Assembly (NCBI RefSeq): GCF_003207825.1
Contig: NZ_NKTY01000020.1
Span: 1-59,170 of the forward strand
DNA length: 59,170 bases
Direction of reading: 5' to 3'
Source: Komagataeibacter saccharivorans
GTDB lineage: Bacteria > Pseudomonadota > Alphaproteobacteria > Acetobacterales > Acetobacteraceae
Made by a program: the position numbers and the translations under genes
The notes under the pieces: generated by a model
The model's database searches: none
The model's input: only the letters and a program-made list of their open reading frames with translations
What the model was told of the DNA's origin: nothing
Shown here: positions 3,250 to 35,357 of the stretch, in pieces
Position numbering within the stretch: position 1 is the stretch's first letter
How the letters are laid out: each line of letters starts with the position of its first letter

Positions 3250-4476
3250 GTGAGAACTGAATTCCTTAGATTTCTGACTGCCCTGCGCCTGATGTTCGGC
3301 TGGTTGCCCGGCCTGCTGTCTTCCATCCTCATGCTCTGCGTGGCGGGTCTGGCTGCTGAAATGTTCAGCCGATTCATCACGAAACTGATCCTGCGTATTC
3401 CGGGACAGAAGCGTGGGGCTTTCATACGCTCCTTCACCATGGCCATGCAGCGCCCCGTGCGCATCATGCTGGTGCTTCTTTTCGTGGGCACGGCGCTGCC
3501 GGTTTCGGGGCTGCCTTATTCAATCATGCAGGTCGCCACCCATACGCTGGTGGTGCTGTTCGTGCTGATGCTGGGTTATGCGGCGGTTGTCGCCACCCGT
3601 ATCCTGTCCGACGCCTATCTCAGGCGGATCAATGGCAAGGATGACAAGGACGACATCCTGCTACGCACGCATATGACGCAGGTGCGCGTCCTGCGCCGCA
3701 CGACGGATCTGCTGATCGGACTGCTGACCATCGGTGCTGCGCTGATGACGTTCGAGCCGGTGCGGCAATATGGCCTCAGCCTGTTCGCTTCCGCCGGTGC
3801 GGCATCGCTGGTTGTCGGTCTGGCAGCGCGCCCGCTGCTGACCAACCTGTTCGCGGGCATGCAGATCGCCATGACGCAGCCCATCCGTATGGAAGACCTC
3901 ATCATCATCAACGGGGACTGGGCGTGGGTGGAGGAAATCACCTCAACCTACGTCGTGCTGCGTGTGTGGGACTGGCGGCGGCATATCGTGCCGATTTCCT
4001 ATTTTCTGGAAAATACATTCCAGAACTGGACCCATAATTCGGCAGCATTGATCGGGGTTGTGTTCATCTATGTGGATTTTAACGCGCCGATGGACCGGAT
4101 ACGGGCACGGCTGCGTGAAATCGTGCATTCCGCCCCCTTGTGGGATGGCAAGGAATTCGCCGTTCAGGTTTCCGACTGCAACGCCCATGTCATGACGATC
4201 CGTGTGATCGCAAGCGCGCGCTCCGCCATGCAGAGCTGGGACCTGCGCTGTGAAATCCGCGAACAGATCCTCGCCTTCCTGCGCGATGAATGCCCCGAAG
4301 CCCTGCCGCGTGACCGGCTTTCGCACGTCGCATCCGCATCGGGGCTGGATATGATGGGGGATCCGGCCATGCTGTCACCACCCATCTCACGCCCGCCGCC
4401 GGGCGCCTATATGGGGCCGCGTAATGGCATGAGCGGCGGTATGGGATCGACCGATGGCGGGCAGGGGCATGGCTGA
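3250..4476 (+). CDS. MscS-family mechanosensitive ion channel
   Basis: The 408-residue inner-membrane protein has about four N-terminal transmembrane helices (near residues 8-38, 75-95, 98-120 and 155-172). These are followed by the glycine/alanine-rich pore helix (near 178-200, LFASAGAASLVVGLAARPL) and the cytosolic MscS beta and alpha-beta domains. The segment PIRMEDLIIINGDWAWVEEI is the characteristic MscS_2 beta strand. Such channels open on hypo-osmotic shock and release solutes. The C-terminus ends in a glycine/methionine-rich tail (about 385-408) that is outside the conserved fold. The start codon is GTG with only a weak ribosome binding site. Confidence 0.88.
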   Translation: MRTEFLRFLTALRLMFGWLPGLLSSILMLCVAGLAAEMFSRFITKLILRIPGQKRGAFIRSFTMAMQRPVRIMLVLLFVGTALPVSGLPYSIMQVATHTLVVLFVLMLGYAAVVATRILSDAYLRRINGKDDKDDILLRTHMTQVRVLRRTTDLLIGLLTIGAALMTFEPVRQYGLSLFASAGAASLVVGLAARPLLTNLFAGMQIAMTQPIRMEDLIIINGDWAWVEEITSTYVVLRVWDWRRHIVPISYFLENTFQNWTHNSAALIGVVFIYVDFNAPMDRIRARLREIVHSAPLWDGKEFAVQVSDCNAHVMTIRVIASARSAMQSWDLRCEIREQILAFLRDECPEALPRDRLSHVASASGLDMMGDPAMLSPPISRPPPGAYMGPRNGMSGGMGSTDGGQGHG

Positions 4477-4497
4477 CCCCCACCGGCCGGTTATGGG

Positions 4498-5337
4498 TCA
4501 GGACAGGTAAAGGAACGCCGCCGCGCCGGCGCCAATGCAGTACCAGCCGAAGGGGCGTAGCGCCCAGTCCTCATGTTCGCGGAAATAACGCATCAGGATG
4601 CCGGTGCAGACCAGTGCGACGACAGCGGCGACGATCGCGGCGATAACGGCCACGTGCATCTGTCCCGGCAGGGGCGGGGCATGCCGCAGTTTCAGCGCTT
4701 CAAGCACGGTGGCGGCCAGAATGACCGGCTGCGCCATGAGAAAGGCGAAGCGCGCCGCGTTTTCATGCGACAGGCCGCGCAGCAGCCCGCCTGCGATGCA
4801 TGCCCCCGAACGCGACAGGCCGGGAAAGAATGCCAGACACTGGAACAGCCCGATGACCACGGCTTCCCCAAATCCCAGTGAAGCAAGGGGGCGATCGCTT
4901 TCGGGCAGCAGGTTTTCGCGCATCCGGTCTACCAGCAGCAGCATGACGCCATTGAGTGCCAGGAAAACCGCTGCGTAACGCGCCGTGCCGAACAGGCTGC
5001 GGATGGCATGTTCGAACAGGCCGCCAATCAGCACCGCCGGAATGGTGGCCACGATCAGCAGTGCAAGGATACGGATGCTGTCCATCTGGATGGTGACGCC
5101 GTAGCGGCCGGTTGTACCGGTAAACAGCGCCACCCAGTCGCGCCAGAAAAATACCAGCAGTGCGACGCATGTGCCCAGATGCAGCATGACCAGCAGGGGC
5201 AGGAACATTTCCCCGTGCAGGTCCACCGGCCATTTCAGGATGGCGGGCACGATGGCCGCGTGGCCAAGGCTGCTTATGGGGAACTGTTCGGTAGCCCCCT
5301 GAATGATCGCTATAATAATTGCCTGAAGGAGTGTCAT
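4498..5337 (-). CDS. uppP: Undecaprenyl-diphosphatase (UppP/BacA)
   Basis: UppP removes a phosphate from undecaprenyl diphosphate at the inner membrane so that the C55 carrier can be reused for peptidoglycan and other glycans. The start at 5337 (MTLLQAIIIAIIQG) gives 279 residues and matches the family N-terminus; a second ATG at 5352 is possible. The (E/Q)xxxE motif is present as QGATE, and the second motif is PGLSRSGACIAGG. The usual SSTGH sequence reads SSLGH, an uncommon change next to the active site. About eight membrane helices are visible. The gene is divergent from the MCE-domain gene at 5461. Confidence 0.9.
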   Translation of the reverse strand: MTLLQAIIIAIIQGATEQFPISSLGHAAIVPAILKWPVDLHGEMFLPLLVMLHLGTCVALLVFFWRDWVALFTGTTGRYGVTIQMDSIRILALLIVATIPAVLIGGLFEHAIRSLFGTARYAAVFLALNGVMLLLVDRMRENLLPESDRPLASLGFGEAVVIGLFQCLAFFPGLSRSGACIAGGLLRGLSHENAARFAFLMAQPVILAATVLEALKLRHAPPLPGQMHVAVIAAIVAAVVALVCTGILMRYFREHEDWALRPFGWYCIGAGAAAFLYLS

Positions 5338-5460: not shown

Positions 5461-5919
5461 ATGGCACGGGAAAGAAGTGGCGCGATCATATCCAGCGGGC
5501 TTGTCCTTCTGGTTGCGGGAGGATTCTGTTTTTATGCCCGTGCATCGCAAAGTGGCGGATACCATGACCGCTACCCCGTAACCGCGCGTTTCGTGTCGGC
5601 TAACGGGCTGTCCGTGGGCGCGGATGTCGCCATGGATGGTGTGCCAGTGGGCCGGGTTACCTCCATCATGTTAGACCCGACGACTTATATGGCCAATGTG
5701 GGTTTCACGGTGGACCGTACATTGTCCCTGCCTGAAGATACAAGCATTTCAATCGGTAGCCCCACCCTTACCGCCGATAACGCCCTGATGATCGAAGCCG
5801 GGCATGCGACCACCATGCTCCGCCCCGGCGCCGTGATTACCAATACGCGCGAACCGGTCAGTCTGGAGCAGCAGGTCAGCAATTATATTTTCGGCAATGG
5901 CGGCCTGCCCACGGACTGA
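5461..5919 (+). CDS. mlaD: MlaD-like MCE-domain lipid-transport protein
   Basis: The 152-residue protein has one N-terminal transmembrane anchor (about 7-27, AIISSGLVLLVAGGFCFYA) and a single MCE domain (about 38-115, with VSANGLSVGADVAMDGVPVG). MlaD proteins form periplasmic hexamers that carry phospholipids between the membranes with the MlaE/MlaF ABC transporter. No mlaE or mlaF lies nearby, so it is an orphan component here. The helical tail after the MCE domain is short. The ATG at 5461 was chosen because the anchor follows directly; upstream starts (5428 ATG, 5401 TTG) are possible. Confidence 0.8.
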   Translation: MARERSGAIISSGLVLLVAGGFCFYARASQSGGYHDRYPVTARFVSANGLSVGADVAMDGVPVGRVTSIMLDPTTYMANVGFTVDRTLSLPEDTSISIGSPTLTADNALMIEAGHATTMLRPGAVITNTREPVSLEQQVSNYIFGNGGLPTD

Positions 5920-5939
5920 CCGGGGCAGGCGATCGGCTT

Positions 5940-7034
5940 TCAGTCGTTCAGGGGGTAACTGGCCATCAGCCTGCGCTGGCGCAGCCAGCTCCGCAGCATG
6001 GTCATCGCGCCGCTGCTTTTCCAGCCATCGCGCCGTTTGCGCGCGCCGATGCGGAAGGTCTCGCGGTAGTGCATGAACTGCGTGGCGTAGGCATCGCGCA
6101 GGGTGGTGCGCGCATCCCATATATGGGTGGCTTCGGAACCCACGCCATTGATTTCGATGATCTGGAAATCTTCCCCCCGGCGCAGGGCGGCGAGGCTCTG
6201 CGCCTTGGCATCGATACGGCCGAAGTGGAAATCGGGAATGTCGCGCATGATGGTGTTGACGCGCGCGACAAGGGCCGGGGTGATGTCCACCGCCCGGTCG
6301 TGGAAAATCGAACCCTTGCAGTGATTGCCCGCGAATACCAGCGGCAGGGACTGACCCAGGGGCAGAACGTCGCGCAGGCGGTCCTTCAGACGGGGCAGGT
6401 AGATATGCGGCACGAGCCGGGTGCGGGCATCGGCGTGGATCAGTTCCTCCACCGTGGAATGGCCATCGCCGGTCAGGTGCGGCACCTCCTTGTAGGTGAG
6501 GGAGGTAATGCGGCCCTCCGCCTCGTCAGGGTGGCGGATATAGAACAGCCCGACTTCATGTCCGTAGGGGATCAGGTGCTGGAGCATGACCGCCACATTG
6601 CGGCCAAAGGCGGCAAGCCCGGTGCGCAGGCTGTCCACGTCGCGCATGATCCGCACGCCCGTTCCGTTGCAGCCGATATCGGGCTTGAGCACGACGGGAA
6701 AGGACAGGCCGGCCTTTTCCATGGCGTCGAGCGCGCGGGGCAGGTCGTTGTCGCCAGTGGTCAGCACGGCGTAGGGGGCGATCCATTCGCGCGCCACATC
6801 GCCCGCCATGTCAAGGATGGAGCTTTTGCTTTCACCGCACAGCCCGCCGGTTTCGATGCGCGGATTGGCGGCGGTGGGCAGGCTGAAATCCCGGTACCAC
6901 AGTCCCAGCACGATCCAGTACAGGACGACCGGCGTGTAGAAGATCCACCCCGGCCAGAACTCGAAAGCCGACACGGTGGGGGCGGCTGCAGGTGACGGCG
7001 GCCGGTGGTCAAGGGTGGTGGTCATGTCGGTCAT
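5940..7034 (-). CDS. Membrane-anchored ATP-grasp ligase, substrate unknown
   Basis: The 364-residue protein has an N-terminal hydrophobic segment (about 26-48, FEFWPGWIFYTPVVLYWIVL) followed by an ATP-grasp fold. The nucleotide loop FPVVLKPDIGCNGTGVRI and the metal-binding segment IIEINGVGSEATHIWD are clear. ATP-grasp enzymes of this kind (D-Ala-D-Ala ligase and cyanophycin synthetase relatives) join a carboxylate to an amine through an acyl phosphate. Its stop side follows the MlaD-like gene convergently, and its ATG overlaps the stop of the DedA gene by 4 bp, so the two are translated together. The membrane anchor and the DedA partner suggest modification of a lipid-linked or envelope substrate; this is inference. 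Confidence 0.72.
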   Translation of the reverse strand: MTDMTTTLDHRPPSPAAAPTVSAFEFWPGWIFYTPVVLYWIVLGLWYRDFSLPTAANPRIETGGLCGESKSSILDMAGDVAREWIAPYAVLTTGDNDLPRALDAMEKAGLSFPVVLKPDIGCNGTGVRIMRDVDSLRTGLAAFGRNVAVMLQHLIPYGHEVGLFYIRHPDEAEGRITSLTYKEVPHLTGDGHSTVEELIHADARTRLVPHIYLPRLKDRLRDVLPLGQSLPLVFAGNHCKGSIFHDRAVDITPALVARVNTIMRDIPDFHFGRIDAKAQSLAALRRGEDFQIIEINGVGSEATHIWDARTTLRDAYATQFMHYRETFRIGARKRRDGWKSSGAMTMLRSWLRQRRLMASYPLND

Positions 7035-32619: not shown

Positions 32620-33381
32620 TCAGGCTCCGGCGTCGCGCTTGGCCTTGAGCGCAAGCGCTTCTTCCGCGCTGCCCACGCCACCATGCTTTGCGGACCATGC
32701 GCAGGGATCTTCAAGGAAGCGGCGGACCTCGGCTGCATCCTTTTCCGAGAAATAGGGCTTGCCCGCGCAGGCTTCCAGCACGTCCCACCATGTGCACAGG
32801 GCATGCAGGCTGATGTTCATGTCAGCCAGCGTACGGTAGGCGCCGGGGAACACGCCATAGAAGAACACGACGAATGTGTGGTCCACGATCGCGCCCGCAT
32901 TGCGCAGGGCATTGGCGAACTGCACCTTGGAAGAACCGTCCGTGGTCAGGTCTTCCACCAGCAGGGTGCGCATGCCTTCGGGCACATCGCCTTCAATCTG
33001 CGCATTGCGGCCAAAGCCCTTGGGCTTTTTACGCACATAGGCCATGGGGGCCATCATGCGGTCCGCAATCCATGCGGCGAAGGGAATCCCGGCCGTCTCG
33101 CCGCCGACTACCGCGTCGATGCTTTCATAGCCGACATGGCGGCCAATTTTCTCGACCGCCAGTTCCATGATCTTCTGCCGCGCGCGGGGGAAGAAGATGA
33201 TGCGGCGGCAATCGATGTAAACCGGGGACTTCCAGCCGGACGTAAGGGTATACGGATCATCGGGACGGAAGTTGACGGCCTTGATTTCCAGCAGAAGGCG
33301 CGCCGTCATCAGTGCCGCATCGCGATCCCACGCTGTTGAACCTGTTGACAGTCCAGCCCCGTTTCCCGTGGCGTCGTGCAT
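32620..33381 (-). CDS. pyrE: Orotate phosphoribosyltransferase
   Basis: PyrE makes OMP from orotate and PRPP in pyrimidine synthesis. The 253-residue protein has the substrate loop LTSGWKSPVYIDCRR and the PRPP-binding motif LLVEDLTTDGSSK. It is longer than E. coli PyrE (213 residues), mostly through an N-terminal extension and extra C-terminal helices, as in other Acetobacteraceae-like homologues. The ATG at 33381 follows GGAGATAGGG. It is the first gene of the probable pyrE-murI transcript. Confidence 0.93.
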   Translation of the reverse strand: MHDATGNGAGLSTGSTAWDRDAALMTARLLLEIKAVNFRPDDPYTLTSGWKSPVYIDCRRIIFFPRARQKIMELAVEKIGRHVGYESIDAVVGGETAGIPFAAWIADRMMAPMAYVRKKPKGFGRNAQIEGDVPEGMRTLLVEDLTTDGSSKVQFANALRNAGAIVDHTFVVFFYGVFPGAYRTLADMNISLHALCTWWDVLEACAGKPYFSEKDAAEVRRFLEDPCAWSAKHGGVGSAEEALALKAKRDAGA

Positions 33382-33552
33382 ACCCTATCTCCGGCCAAAT
33401 GATATTCGCTGTCGTGAATGACAGGACAGACGATTAACCGCAACAGATGGGAAAATCCATCGGTCTGCACGGCCTGCGGCCAAAAATGCGTAAAAAAGCG
33501 GTCCGGGAAATATAATGTGACAACTCGGCGCGGGATGAGGGGCATGTATACC

Positions 33553-33581
33553 TTGCCCAATCAGTCCATTCGCTCTAGTAT
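33553..33581 (+). promoter_or_regulatory. Sigma-70-like promoter of the small Fur-box gene
   Basis: TTGCCC (33553-33558) and TAGTAT (33576-33581) are separated by 17 bp, the ideal spacing. Each hexamer matches its consensus at four of six positions. The predicted transcription start, near 33588, falls at the edge of the Fur-like box, as expected for repression by iron-loaded Fur. Confidence 0.6.
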
Positions 33582-33589
33582 CCCAGTAT

Positions 33590-33604
33590 TGATAATCATT
33601 CTCA
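33590..33604. promoter_or_regulatory. Fur-like box (7-1-7 palindrome)
   Basis: TGATAATCATTCTCA matches the Fur 7-1-7 consensus TGATAATnATTATCA at every defined position except one. It is placed directly downstream of the promoter hexamers and 18 bp before the GTG start of the 79-residue gene, the usual place for an iron repressor. Confidence 0.78.
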
Positions 33605-33622
33605 ATAATAGGTCATCGCATC

Positions 33623-33862
33623 GTGTCTGTTGAAAACAGTCGCATCGCTCGTAAATGTGAGCGTGCCGTAATCACCGCCTACCAGGAACTGCGTGGCGTT
33701 GGGACCAGCGATGTGTCGGCTTTCCATGCCTGCACGACCCTTTACCGCATCCACCATCCCGAATCCTCGCTGAACGAGGCCCGGCGGCTGGTGTCGGAAT
33801 GGATCGACCATCACGTGATCCAGAAGCGCCCCGGTCCCACAAACGGCTGCGAGTGCGACTGA
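33623..33862 (+). CDS. Small protein of unknown function, probably iron-regulated
   Basis: The 79-residue protein (start GTG at 33623) has no domain that I recognise. It appears alpha-helical and basic, with histidines in the middle (FHACTTLYRIHHPES, DHHVIQ) and a cysteine-rich tail, GCECD; four cysteines are at 12, 36, 76 and 78. Codon use and third-position GC match the neighbouring genes. A sigma-70-like promoter and Fur-like box precede it and a strong terminator follows, so it is a complete monocistronic unit. A role in iron or haem handling is inferred from regulation only. Confidence 0.75.
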   Translation: MSVENSRIARKCERAVITAYQELRGVGTSDVSAFHACTTLYRIHHPESSLNEARRLVSEWIDHHVIQKRPGPTNGCECD

Positions 33863-33890
33863 CCCCACTGGCTGGGGCCAAAGACATGAG

Positions 33891-33924
33891 AAAGGCAGGC
33901 ACATGAATGTGGCCTGCCTTTTTT
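33891..33924 (+). terminator. Strong rho-independent terminator
   Basis: AAAGGCAGGC (33891-33900) pairs with GCCTGCCTTT (33912-33921), with extra ACA/TGT pairing inside the loop, followed by a run of six T that overlaps the 3' arm. It closes the transcript of the 79-residue gene 29 bp after its stop. Confidence 0.88.
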
Positions 33925-34019
33925 GTATCGGGGGTAAATCCCGATGCGACCCTATCGCGTTATTTCAGTCCTGAAATCAGGCCGGTGACGGGAGAGGGCG
34001 GCTGGTTGTCATCATGTCC

Positions 34020-34051
34020 ATGCCGGGCGACATTCCTGCCGCCCGGCATGA
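34020..34051. terminator. Inverted repeat behind citrate synthase
   Basis: CATGCCGGGCG and CGCCCGGCATG are perfect 11-bp arms around a 10-nt loop, 8 bp behind the gltA stop on the minus strand. The T-run expected of an intrinsic terminator is lacking, so it may act as a 3'-end stabiliser or with Rho. A smaller palindrome ATTTCAG-TC-CTGAAAT (33963-33978) lies further on. Confidence 0.6.
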
Positions 34052-34058
34052 AATATGA

Positions 34059-35357
34059 TCAGCTCCGTTTGTCGAACCCGACGAAGTCACGCTGCGGCGA
34101 ACCGACATAAAGCTGGCGGGGACGACCGATGCGCTGGCCCGGTTCTTCGATCATTTCCTTCCACTGGCTGATCCAGCCGGTGGTGCGGGCGACGGCAAAC
34201 AGCACGGTGAACATGCTGGTAGGGATGCCCATGGCCTTCAGGATGATGCCCGAATAGAAATCGACATTGGGGTAGAGGCTGCGCTTGACGAAATATTCGT
34301 CATGAATGGCAATCTTTTCCAGTTCGATCGCCAGATCCAGCAGCGGATCATCCTTGATCCCCAGTTCGCCCAGCACCTCATGGCAGGTGGCCTGCATGAT
34401 CTTCGCACGCGGGTCGAAGTTCTTGTATACGCGGTGGCCAAAGCCCATCAGGCGCACGCCGCTGGTCTTGTCCTTCACCTTGGCGATGAATTCGGGAATG
34501 TTGTCCTTGTGGCCGATTTCAGCCAGCATCTTCAGCACGGCTTCGTTGGCGCCACCATGCGCAGGCCCCCACAGCGCCGCGATACCGGCGGAAATACAGG
34601 CAAACGGATTGGCGCCCGTGGACCCGGCCAGCCGCACGGTGGAGGTCGATGCGTTCTGTTCGTGGTCGGCATGCAGGATCAGGATGCGATCCATCGCGCG
34701 CGCCAGAACCGGGTTGATCTTGTACGGTTCGCTGGGCACCGCAAACATCATGGACAGGAAGTTTTCCGCATAGGACAGGTCGTTACGCGGGTAGATGAAG
34801 GTTTCACCCTGCGTATATTTGTACGCCCATGCGGCGATGGTCGGGATCTTGGCGATGATGCGCAGGGCCGACTGGTAGCGCGTCGCCGCGTTCGAGACAT
34901 CCAGCCCTTCATGATAGAAGGAGGACAGCGCCCCGACCGTCCCGCACAGGATGGCCATGGGATGCGCATCACGGCGGAAACCGTTGAAGAAGTTGCGGAT
35001 CTGTTCGTGCAGCAGGGTGTGGTGCTTGATCGAGTTCACGAAGCCGTCGTACTGCGCCCGGTCCGGCAGTTCACCGTTAAGCAGCAGGTACGCCACTTCC
35101 ATGAACGTGGCCTGTTCGGCCAGTTGGGCGATGGGGTAGCCGCGATGCAGCAGGATGCCCTTTTCACCATCAATGAAAGTGATCTTGCTGGAGCAGGATG
35201 CGGTTTCGCCATAACCGGGATCGTAGGTGAATACGTCGGCCTGTGCTGGCAGCTTGCGGATATCGACGACATCGGGGCCCATCGTGCCGGACAGCACGGG
35301 CAGTGACACATCCTTGCCGTTTAGCGAGATTGTGGCGGTTTTTGCGGACTCGCTCAT
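34059..35357 (-). CDS. gltA: Citrate synthase, type II (AarA-like)
   Basis: Citrate synthase condenses oxaloacetate with acetyl-CoA; in acetic acid bacteria it is the acetic acid resistance gene aarA. The 432-residue protein has the family's catalytic histidine blocks [13 protein letters not shown] and [13 protein letters not shown], and the catalytic aspartate in NVDFYSG. A good ribosome binding site (GAGGAGAG) precedes the ATG. The gene lies behind sixA-like and chorismate mutase genes on the same strand but has its own 222-bp upstream spacer with a TATAAA-like hexamer (35477-35472), so it probably has its own promoter. Confidence 0.95.

Follow-up and report, generated by a model that had tools for sequence, protein, structure and literature searches.

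Fur is usually described as sensing free Fe2+ alone. Small proteins linked to Fur are known, among them HemP/HmuP, and the FbpA, FbpB and FbpC proteins of Bacillus are small Fur-controlled proteins of the iron-sparing response. The iron regulons of alphaproteobacteria were reportedly compared in a study of 2006. In the window analyzed here, which is the whole stretch of 59,170 nucleotides from Komagataeibacter saccharivorans, we found a 79-codon gene preceded by a Fur-like box. Its product shares with HemP/HmuP the small size and a putatively iron-regulated context, but no Pfam family matches it even at E 10. With FbpA/B/C it shares the small size and repression by Fur, the latter predicted here from the box. 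It differs from them in gene context, and a search of 299 genomes of the phylum gave only two marginal relatives outside Alphaproteobacteria (E 4.7e-4 and 8.4e-4). Literature searches, including parts of PMC9368920 and PMC3751524 (Caulobacter), returned no paper on this gene. PMC9368920 describes iron RNA-seq in Gluconacetobacter diazotrophicus; the terms 'hypothetical protein' and 'citrate synthase' did not occur in a term search of its main text. According to the same paper, loss of fur may be lethal in acetic acid bacteria.

The gene is a single short unit on the plus strand. It lies between a divergent pyrE-like phosphoribosyltransferase gene (32620-33381, minus strand, PF00156) and the convergent citrate synthase gene gltA (34059-35357, minus strand, PF00285), both of which are context only. 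The promoter-like element TTGCCC-17-TAGTAT occupies positions 33553-33581 of the plus strand, with the -35 at 33553-33558, a spacer of 17 nt and the -10 at 33576-33581. It agrees with the consensus at 8 of 12 positions, which is below the threshold of the promoter scan, and the simple scan listed no plus-strand promoter at 33553-33581. The box TGATAATCATTCTCA (33590-33604, plus strand) begins 8 nt beyond the -10 and would correspond to roughly +1 to +15 of the predicted transcript, the start of which is assumed from the position of the -10. The initial annotation had called the box a palindrome with one deviation from the Fur 7-1-7 consensus and had placed it at this promoter. Both statements hold, the single mismatch being to TGATAATCATTATCA.

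The coding frame starts with GTG and extends over 33623-33862 of the plus strand; a three-helix protein is predicted. An intrinsic-terminator-like hairpin with a U run follows at about 33890-33926 (plus strand), between this gene and gltA. Folding of 33855-33935 gave a long G+C-rich stem and then the U run, with -36.9 kcal/mol and z -3.77, which bears out the earlier description of a complete unit closed by a strong terminator. The simple scan, with its loop limit of 8, found no terminator after the gene. We also considered the antisense frame 33602-33904. In all 13 Komagataeibacter loci compared, it is interrupted by one to three stops, and therefore the antisense frame is not the gene.

A homology search across Acetobacteraceae had been set beforehand as a check on the frame. 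It turned out that the gene is matched in 259 of the 299 sampled genomes of the family. A second sample of 200 genomes, drawn from the order and overlapping the first, contains 182 carriers. Nearly all of the 259 carriers have one match, and two (G059 and G271) have two. The nearest named sequences are those of Komagataeibacter. Compared with 12 Komagataeibacter sequences, the gene has 14-22 codon changes that are only synonymous and 1-2 that are non-synonymous. This indicates that the 79-codon frame is a real gene under purifying selection. From 314 confirmed loci we kept 80 as a named set, and in 60 of these 80 both pyrE and gltA flank the gene. A phage origin was rejected: the search of 50,697 phage records gave no match, and there was only a weak hit to phrog_4436 (E 0.032).

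Within the 59-kb window, 33590-33604 is the sole place with three mismatches or fewer, and it matches once on each strand. The box scan of the window thus counted 2 matches against an expected 0.43 (sd 0.71), and 11 of 100 shuffles also reached 2. The box statistics of the window alone are weak evidence, so the relatives have to carry the case. When the whole genome was scanned with the pattern TGATAATNATTNTCA at two mismatches or fewer, we obtained 79 strand-hits, compared to 7 for the reversed control, and 33590-33604 is among three places that match the pattern exactly. Several other good sites of the genome adjoin open reading frames that resemble TonB receptors, haem oxygenase and ExbD, the names being read by eye. 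The two other exact matches are at C38:40064-40078 (L172), which is a perfect palindrome, and at C19:17223-17237 (L170). The genome has three genes of the FUR family, of which the Fur-like one is P0002 on contig C9. A Fur-like site with two mismatches (C9:82556-82570) lies about 130 nt before the profile match of this Fur gene, and its position is as expected for a putative autoregulation of Fur.

In the relatives, we searched the 150 nt upstream of the gene. The E. coli consensus TGATAATNATTATCA, with at most 3 mismatches in 14, was present in 49 of the 80 named loci. Shuffles gave a mean of 0.71 and a maximum of 4, and the control window of these loci, from -450 to -300, gave 0/80. A degenerate pattern, which accommodates TGCAAATCGTTCGCA and TGCGAATNATTCGCA as well and was partly shaped on the same 80 loci, was found in 71 of them (shuffles: mean 3.2, maximum 8; control 0); the remaining 9 fall below 13 of 15 positions. 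The 12-13 near-copies from Komagataeibacter among the 80 loci inflate both box counts, and close species are not independent of each other. In most of the upstream regions an A+T-rich -10-like element, recognized by eye, precedes the box at a near-constant distance, and where the promoter is readable the box always lies just past the -10. The locus thus has what is expected of a Fur-repressed gene, namely a palindromic box at the promoter or at the start of transcription (assumed from the -10) and its retention in relatives. The comparison of upstream regions that the initial annotation had proposed thus came out in favor of its claim, and neither of the sequence results that would have spoken against it, loss of the box or of the frame in related genomes, was seen. 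Since an uncharacterized conserved protein is combined with a box that recurs just past the -10, a Fur-controlled iron-response protein is a good reading of the gene. The argument from the haem- and iron-rich oxidative enzymes of acetic acid bacteria, which had accompanied the claim, plays no part in the evidence for the Fur-linked reading.

The protein had been described as small, bearing histidine and cysteine and having no recognizable domain. This description agrees with our results. At E 10 neither Pfam nor NCBIfam gave a single family for the 79 residues, and a search of PDB sequences gave nothing significant. When 27 diverse members were compared with Pfam, NCBIfam and PDB sequences, nothing consistent was found; the stray best matches were DUF7426 (E 0.0018) and SGM_3592 (E 0.033), in one member each. 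AlphaFold with 68 sequences predicts three confident helices, 2-25, 30-44 and 50-66, with a pLDDT of 87.8 and a pTM of 0.76. Foldseek with the predicted model returned no significant match in PDB or in viral models. The four cysteines C12, C37, C76 and C78 and the histidines H44, H45, H63 and H64 are invariant in the 68 aligned close members, which thus have a conserved Cys/His set of the kind expected in small metal-binding proteins. Across the 27 diverse members, C12, Y20, H45, P46 and W60 are nearly invariant, so that of the eight Cys/His residues only C12 and H45 keep this status. The cysteine pattern depends on the branch: outside Acetobacteraceae there is CxC or CC at the N-terminus, and within the family there is C37 with a C-terminal CxC. 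In two small-genome relatives H44 is replaced by Tyr. The FUR family PF01475 matches neither the 79-residue protein nor the 27 members. Judging from its homologues, the protein belongs to an alphaproteobacterial family that has no name, whose members have about 58-80 residues and a predicted three-helix structure.

A profile search found distant members in 20 genomes outside Acetobacteraceae among 289 genomes of the class, and a broader profile found them in 37 outside genomes among 385, a sample that overlaps the 289. Thus, the idea of an uncharacterized protein of acetic acid bacteria was right in that the protein has no known domain and is family-wide, and it failed in confining the protein to these bacteria, as homologues occur in other alphaproteobacterial families. 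We examined the loci of 40 of the 41 outside-family matches. In 20 of the 40, the family gene immediately follows fur in the same orientation, with 29-126 nt between the profile edges; these loci belong to 19 genomes, 17 genera and 10 families. There was no case among the 40 of fur directly upstream on the opposite strand. The Fur neighbors were confirmed by Pfam for L059 and L060, and the rest were recognized with a profile from seven Fur proteins, six of which come from these loci. Of the 20 fur-linked members, 15 have His as the last residue. The other 20 loci have no fur nearby, and most of them have no metal gene in the regions read. We also tried the idea that the fur-linked operons are themselves repressed by Fur. 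A Fur-like site with three mismatches or fewer precedes fur in only 2 of the 20, and therefore the evidence for putative Fur control covers the Acetobacteraceae branch only.

Several loci have further genes beside the family gene. L225 has two consecutive FUR-family matches: one immediately precedes the family gene, and the other, which is weaker, is at a distance of about 820 nt. In L063 a BFD-like [2Fe-2S] gene (5742-5969, minus strand) comes immediately before fur, and fur before the family gene. The neighbor in L051 was considered imelysin-like; by Pfam it is an M20 peptidase, and thus the iron link of L051 was dropped. The reading of the L056 neighbor as a 2Fe-2S ferredoxin was discarded, as it had no Pfam support.

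A search of plasmids gave 12 records of Azospirillum and Indioceanicola, of which seven were inspected. On two Azospirillum plasmids the family ORF (L245:4016-4192 and L246:3998-4174) is located between a metal-sensing repressor (PF02583) and dmeF (PF01545), a gene of Co/Ni efflux. One of the two records lists this ORF as a hypothetical protein, and the other lists no gene there. In two different genomes a family member directly follows the gene of the Mn efflux protein MntP (PF02659; L240 near 4169-5074 and L249 near 3526-4210). Among the inspected plasmid records, one has the family gene after the MntP gene, one has it near heavy-metal RND efflux genes, and in L248 a Fur-like ORF, recognized by eye, stands before it. 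The four members linked to dmeF or mntP form one starred clade of the family tree with one further row, and the acetic-acid-bacterial members form another, in a tree that has few columns and many unresolved forks.

We compared the presence of the gene with the presence of Fur. The non-carriers are a listed part of those in the family and order samples, and the counts ignore kinship. In genus g31 a Fur match was found in 11 of 11 tested carriers and was missing from the one non-carrier; in genus g102 it was found in 15 of 15 tested carriers and was missing from both non-carriers. Taken together, a Fur match is present in all 26 tested carriers and absent from all three non-carriers, and all of these genomes are at least 97% complete. 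Further carriers have a Fur match in 32 of 32 cases within Acetobacteraceae and in 37 of 37 outside it, carriers alone being considered there. Among the 32 listed non-carriers, the Fur match is ordinary in 12, diverged in 13 (48-55% identity), fragmentary in one and absent from six; three of these six are assemblies that are 77-93% complete. Because 12 non-carriers have an ordinary Fur match, the link is suggestive rather than strict, and the presence of the gene appears to follow Fur in part. The genomes G203 and G267 of g102 and G210 of g31 are 99% complete and have no match to the Fur of our own genome at E 0.001.

The explanation that we prefer, with a probability of about 40%, is that the protein is a small metal-binding helper of Fur-type regulators that exchanges metal with its cognate regulator and, in Acetobacteraceae, is repressed by Fur. 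The genomes themselves provide a conserved gene, a conserved position of the box, the adjacency to fur and to metal genes, and the joint absence in two genera. A metal-binding helper fits best because the family stands beside metal sensors (Fur, the PF02583 repressor) and exporters (DmeF, MntP) and has conserved Cys and His. The protein would bind a divalent metal, Fe2+ in this case, via the conserved Cys/His set, and would hand the metal to Fur or take it from Fur, thereby tuning the readiness of Fur to switch. In Acetobacteraceae, Fur would repress the gene at ample iron through the box at the transcription start. When iron is short, the protein would be made and would exchange metal with Fur or keep Fe2+ available, which would close a feedback loop. 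In other lineages the gene would be part of the fur operon, and a side branch of the family may have been recruited to the Co/Ni (dmeR-dmeF) and Mn (mntP) genes. We infer the binding of Fur to the box, the response to iron, the binding of metal by the protein, its contact with Fur and the direction of the effect.

In the main rival to the helper model, the protein would buffer metal in the cytosol or spare iron and would have no contact with Fur, so that the co-location would reflect shared physiology only. Cells short of iron would make it to store or distribute Fe2+, or to bind leaking Mn, Co and Ni. Conserved Cys and His would suit such a protein, as would the separate Fur-box unit in Acetobacteraceae and the relatives that stand beside Co/Ni and Mn exporters and not beside fur alone. 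A ferritin gene about 1.2 kb from the family gene in L053 and an NifU_N gene upstream of it in L052 agree with this too. However, the same-strand place immediately after the regulator gene in 20 of 40 loci points more to the regulator, and the joint absence with Fur in two genera also points more to the regulator than to metal stores. We consider the buffer somewhat unlikely. The same fur operon position could mean that the protein is an antagonist or tuner of Fur that acts by protein contact alone, with no metal transfer, and exerts negative feedback on it. The predicted Fur-repressed feedback layout in Acetobacteraceae is consistent with this, and the invariant surface-like stretches RIHHPE and EWIDHH could serve for contact. 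But the branch at dmeR-dmeF and mntP would then need to have exchanged Fur for an unrelated repressor or to have lost its partner altogether, and the near-invariant Cys/His would stay unexplained, which makes such an antagonist distinctly unlikely in our estimation.

Two further explanations were considered. It is improbable that another protein of the FUR family binds the box and that the gene responds to some other metal or signal instead of iron. The genome does encode three FUR-family proteins, and relatives of the gene are tied to Mn and Co/Ni genes; yet the box closely resembles the classical Fur consensus, and other good sites of the genome lie beside the TonB-receptor-like, haem-oxygenase-like and ExbD-like ORFs named by eye. 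An RNA-acting helper of an iron-sparing response, by analogy with FbpA/B/C of Bacillus, could likewise be small, have a Fur box and form its own transcription unit. We find this very improbable, as a helper of small RNA would not be expected next to genes that regulate or export other metals, and no RNA family reached the gathering threshold in 33300-34100.

The metal-binding helper of Fur-type regulators also has a more far-reaching form. The family may be a dedicated partner of metalloregulators in Alphaproteobacteria, that is, a small metallochaperone for the loading or unloading of Fur, with a side branch for Co/Ni and Mn. We regard this form as rather doubtful. If it were true, Fur would not be a stand-alone iron sensor and would sense iron through or with the family protein. 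The gene is adjacent to fur in at least 17 sampled genera, has a Fur-like box in most acetic-acid-bacterial relatives and is missing together with Fur in two genera. The protein would therefore be a candidate for a missing part of iron sensing and a promising piece of iron management. It is small and soluble, and most genomes carry a single copy of its gene. The analysis also yields named loci for a family whose members are now annotated as hypothetical proteins or not called at all.

Besides HemP/HmuP and FbpA/B/C, three known systems have a partial likeness to the family. BFD-like [2Fe-2S] proteins (PF04324) are also small, Cys-bearing and linked to iron, and the fur-linked branch has a CxC near the N-terminus as they do; in contrast to them, neither the 79-residue protein nor any of the 27 members matches PF04324. 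The dmeR-dmeF operons consist of a repressor of the RcnR/CsoR type and a CDF exporter, and on the two Azospirillum plasmids a family member stands between the repressor and dmeF. The repressor has a domain of its own, PF02583, which matches 0 of the 27 members scanned. The genes of the Fur regulon have the same 7-1-7 palindrome, here one mismatch off the consensus, just past the -10, whereas the product at this locus comes from an unnamed family and is not a protein of uptake, siderophores or storage. Thus, what is new here is the family, and by its layout it appears in a role of a known kind, that of a Fur-repressed accessory gene.
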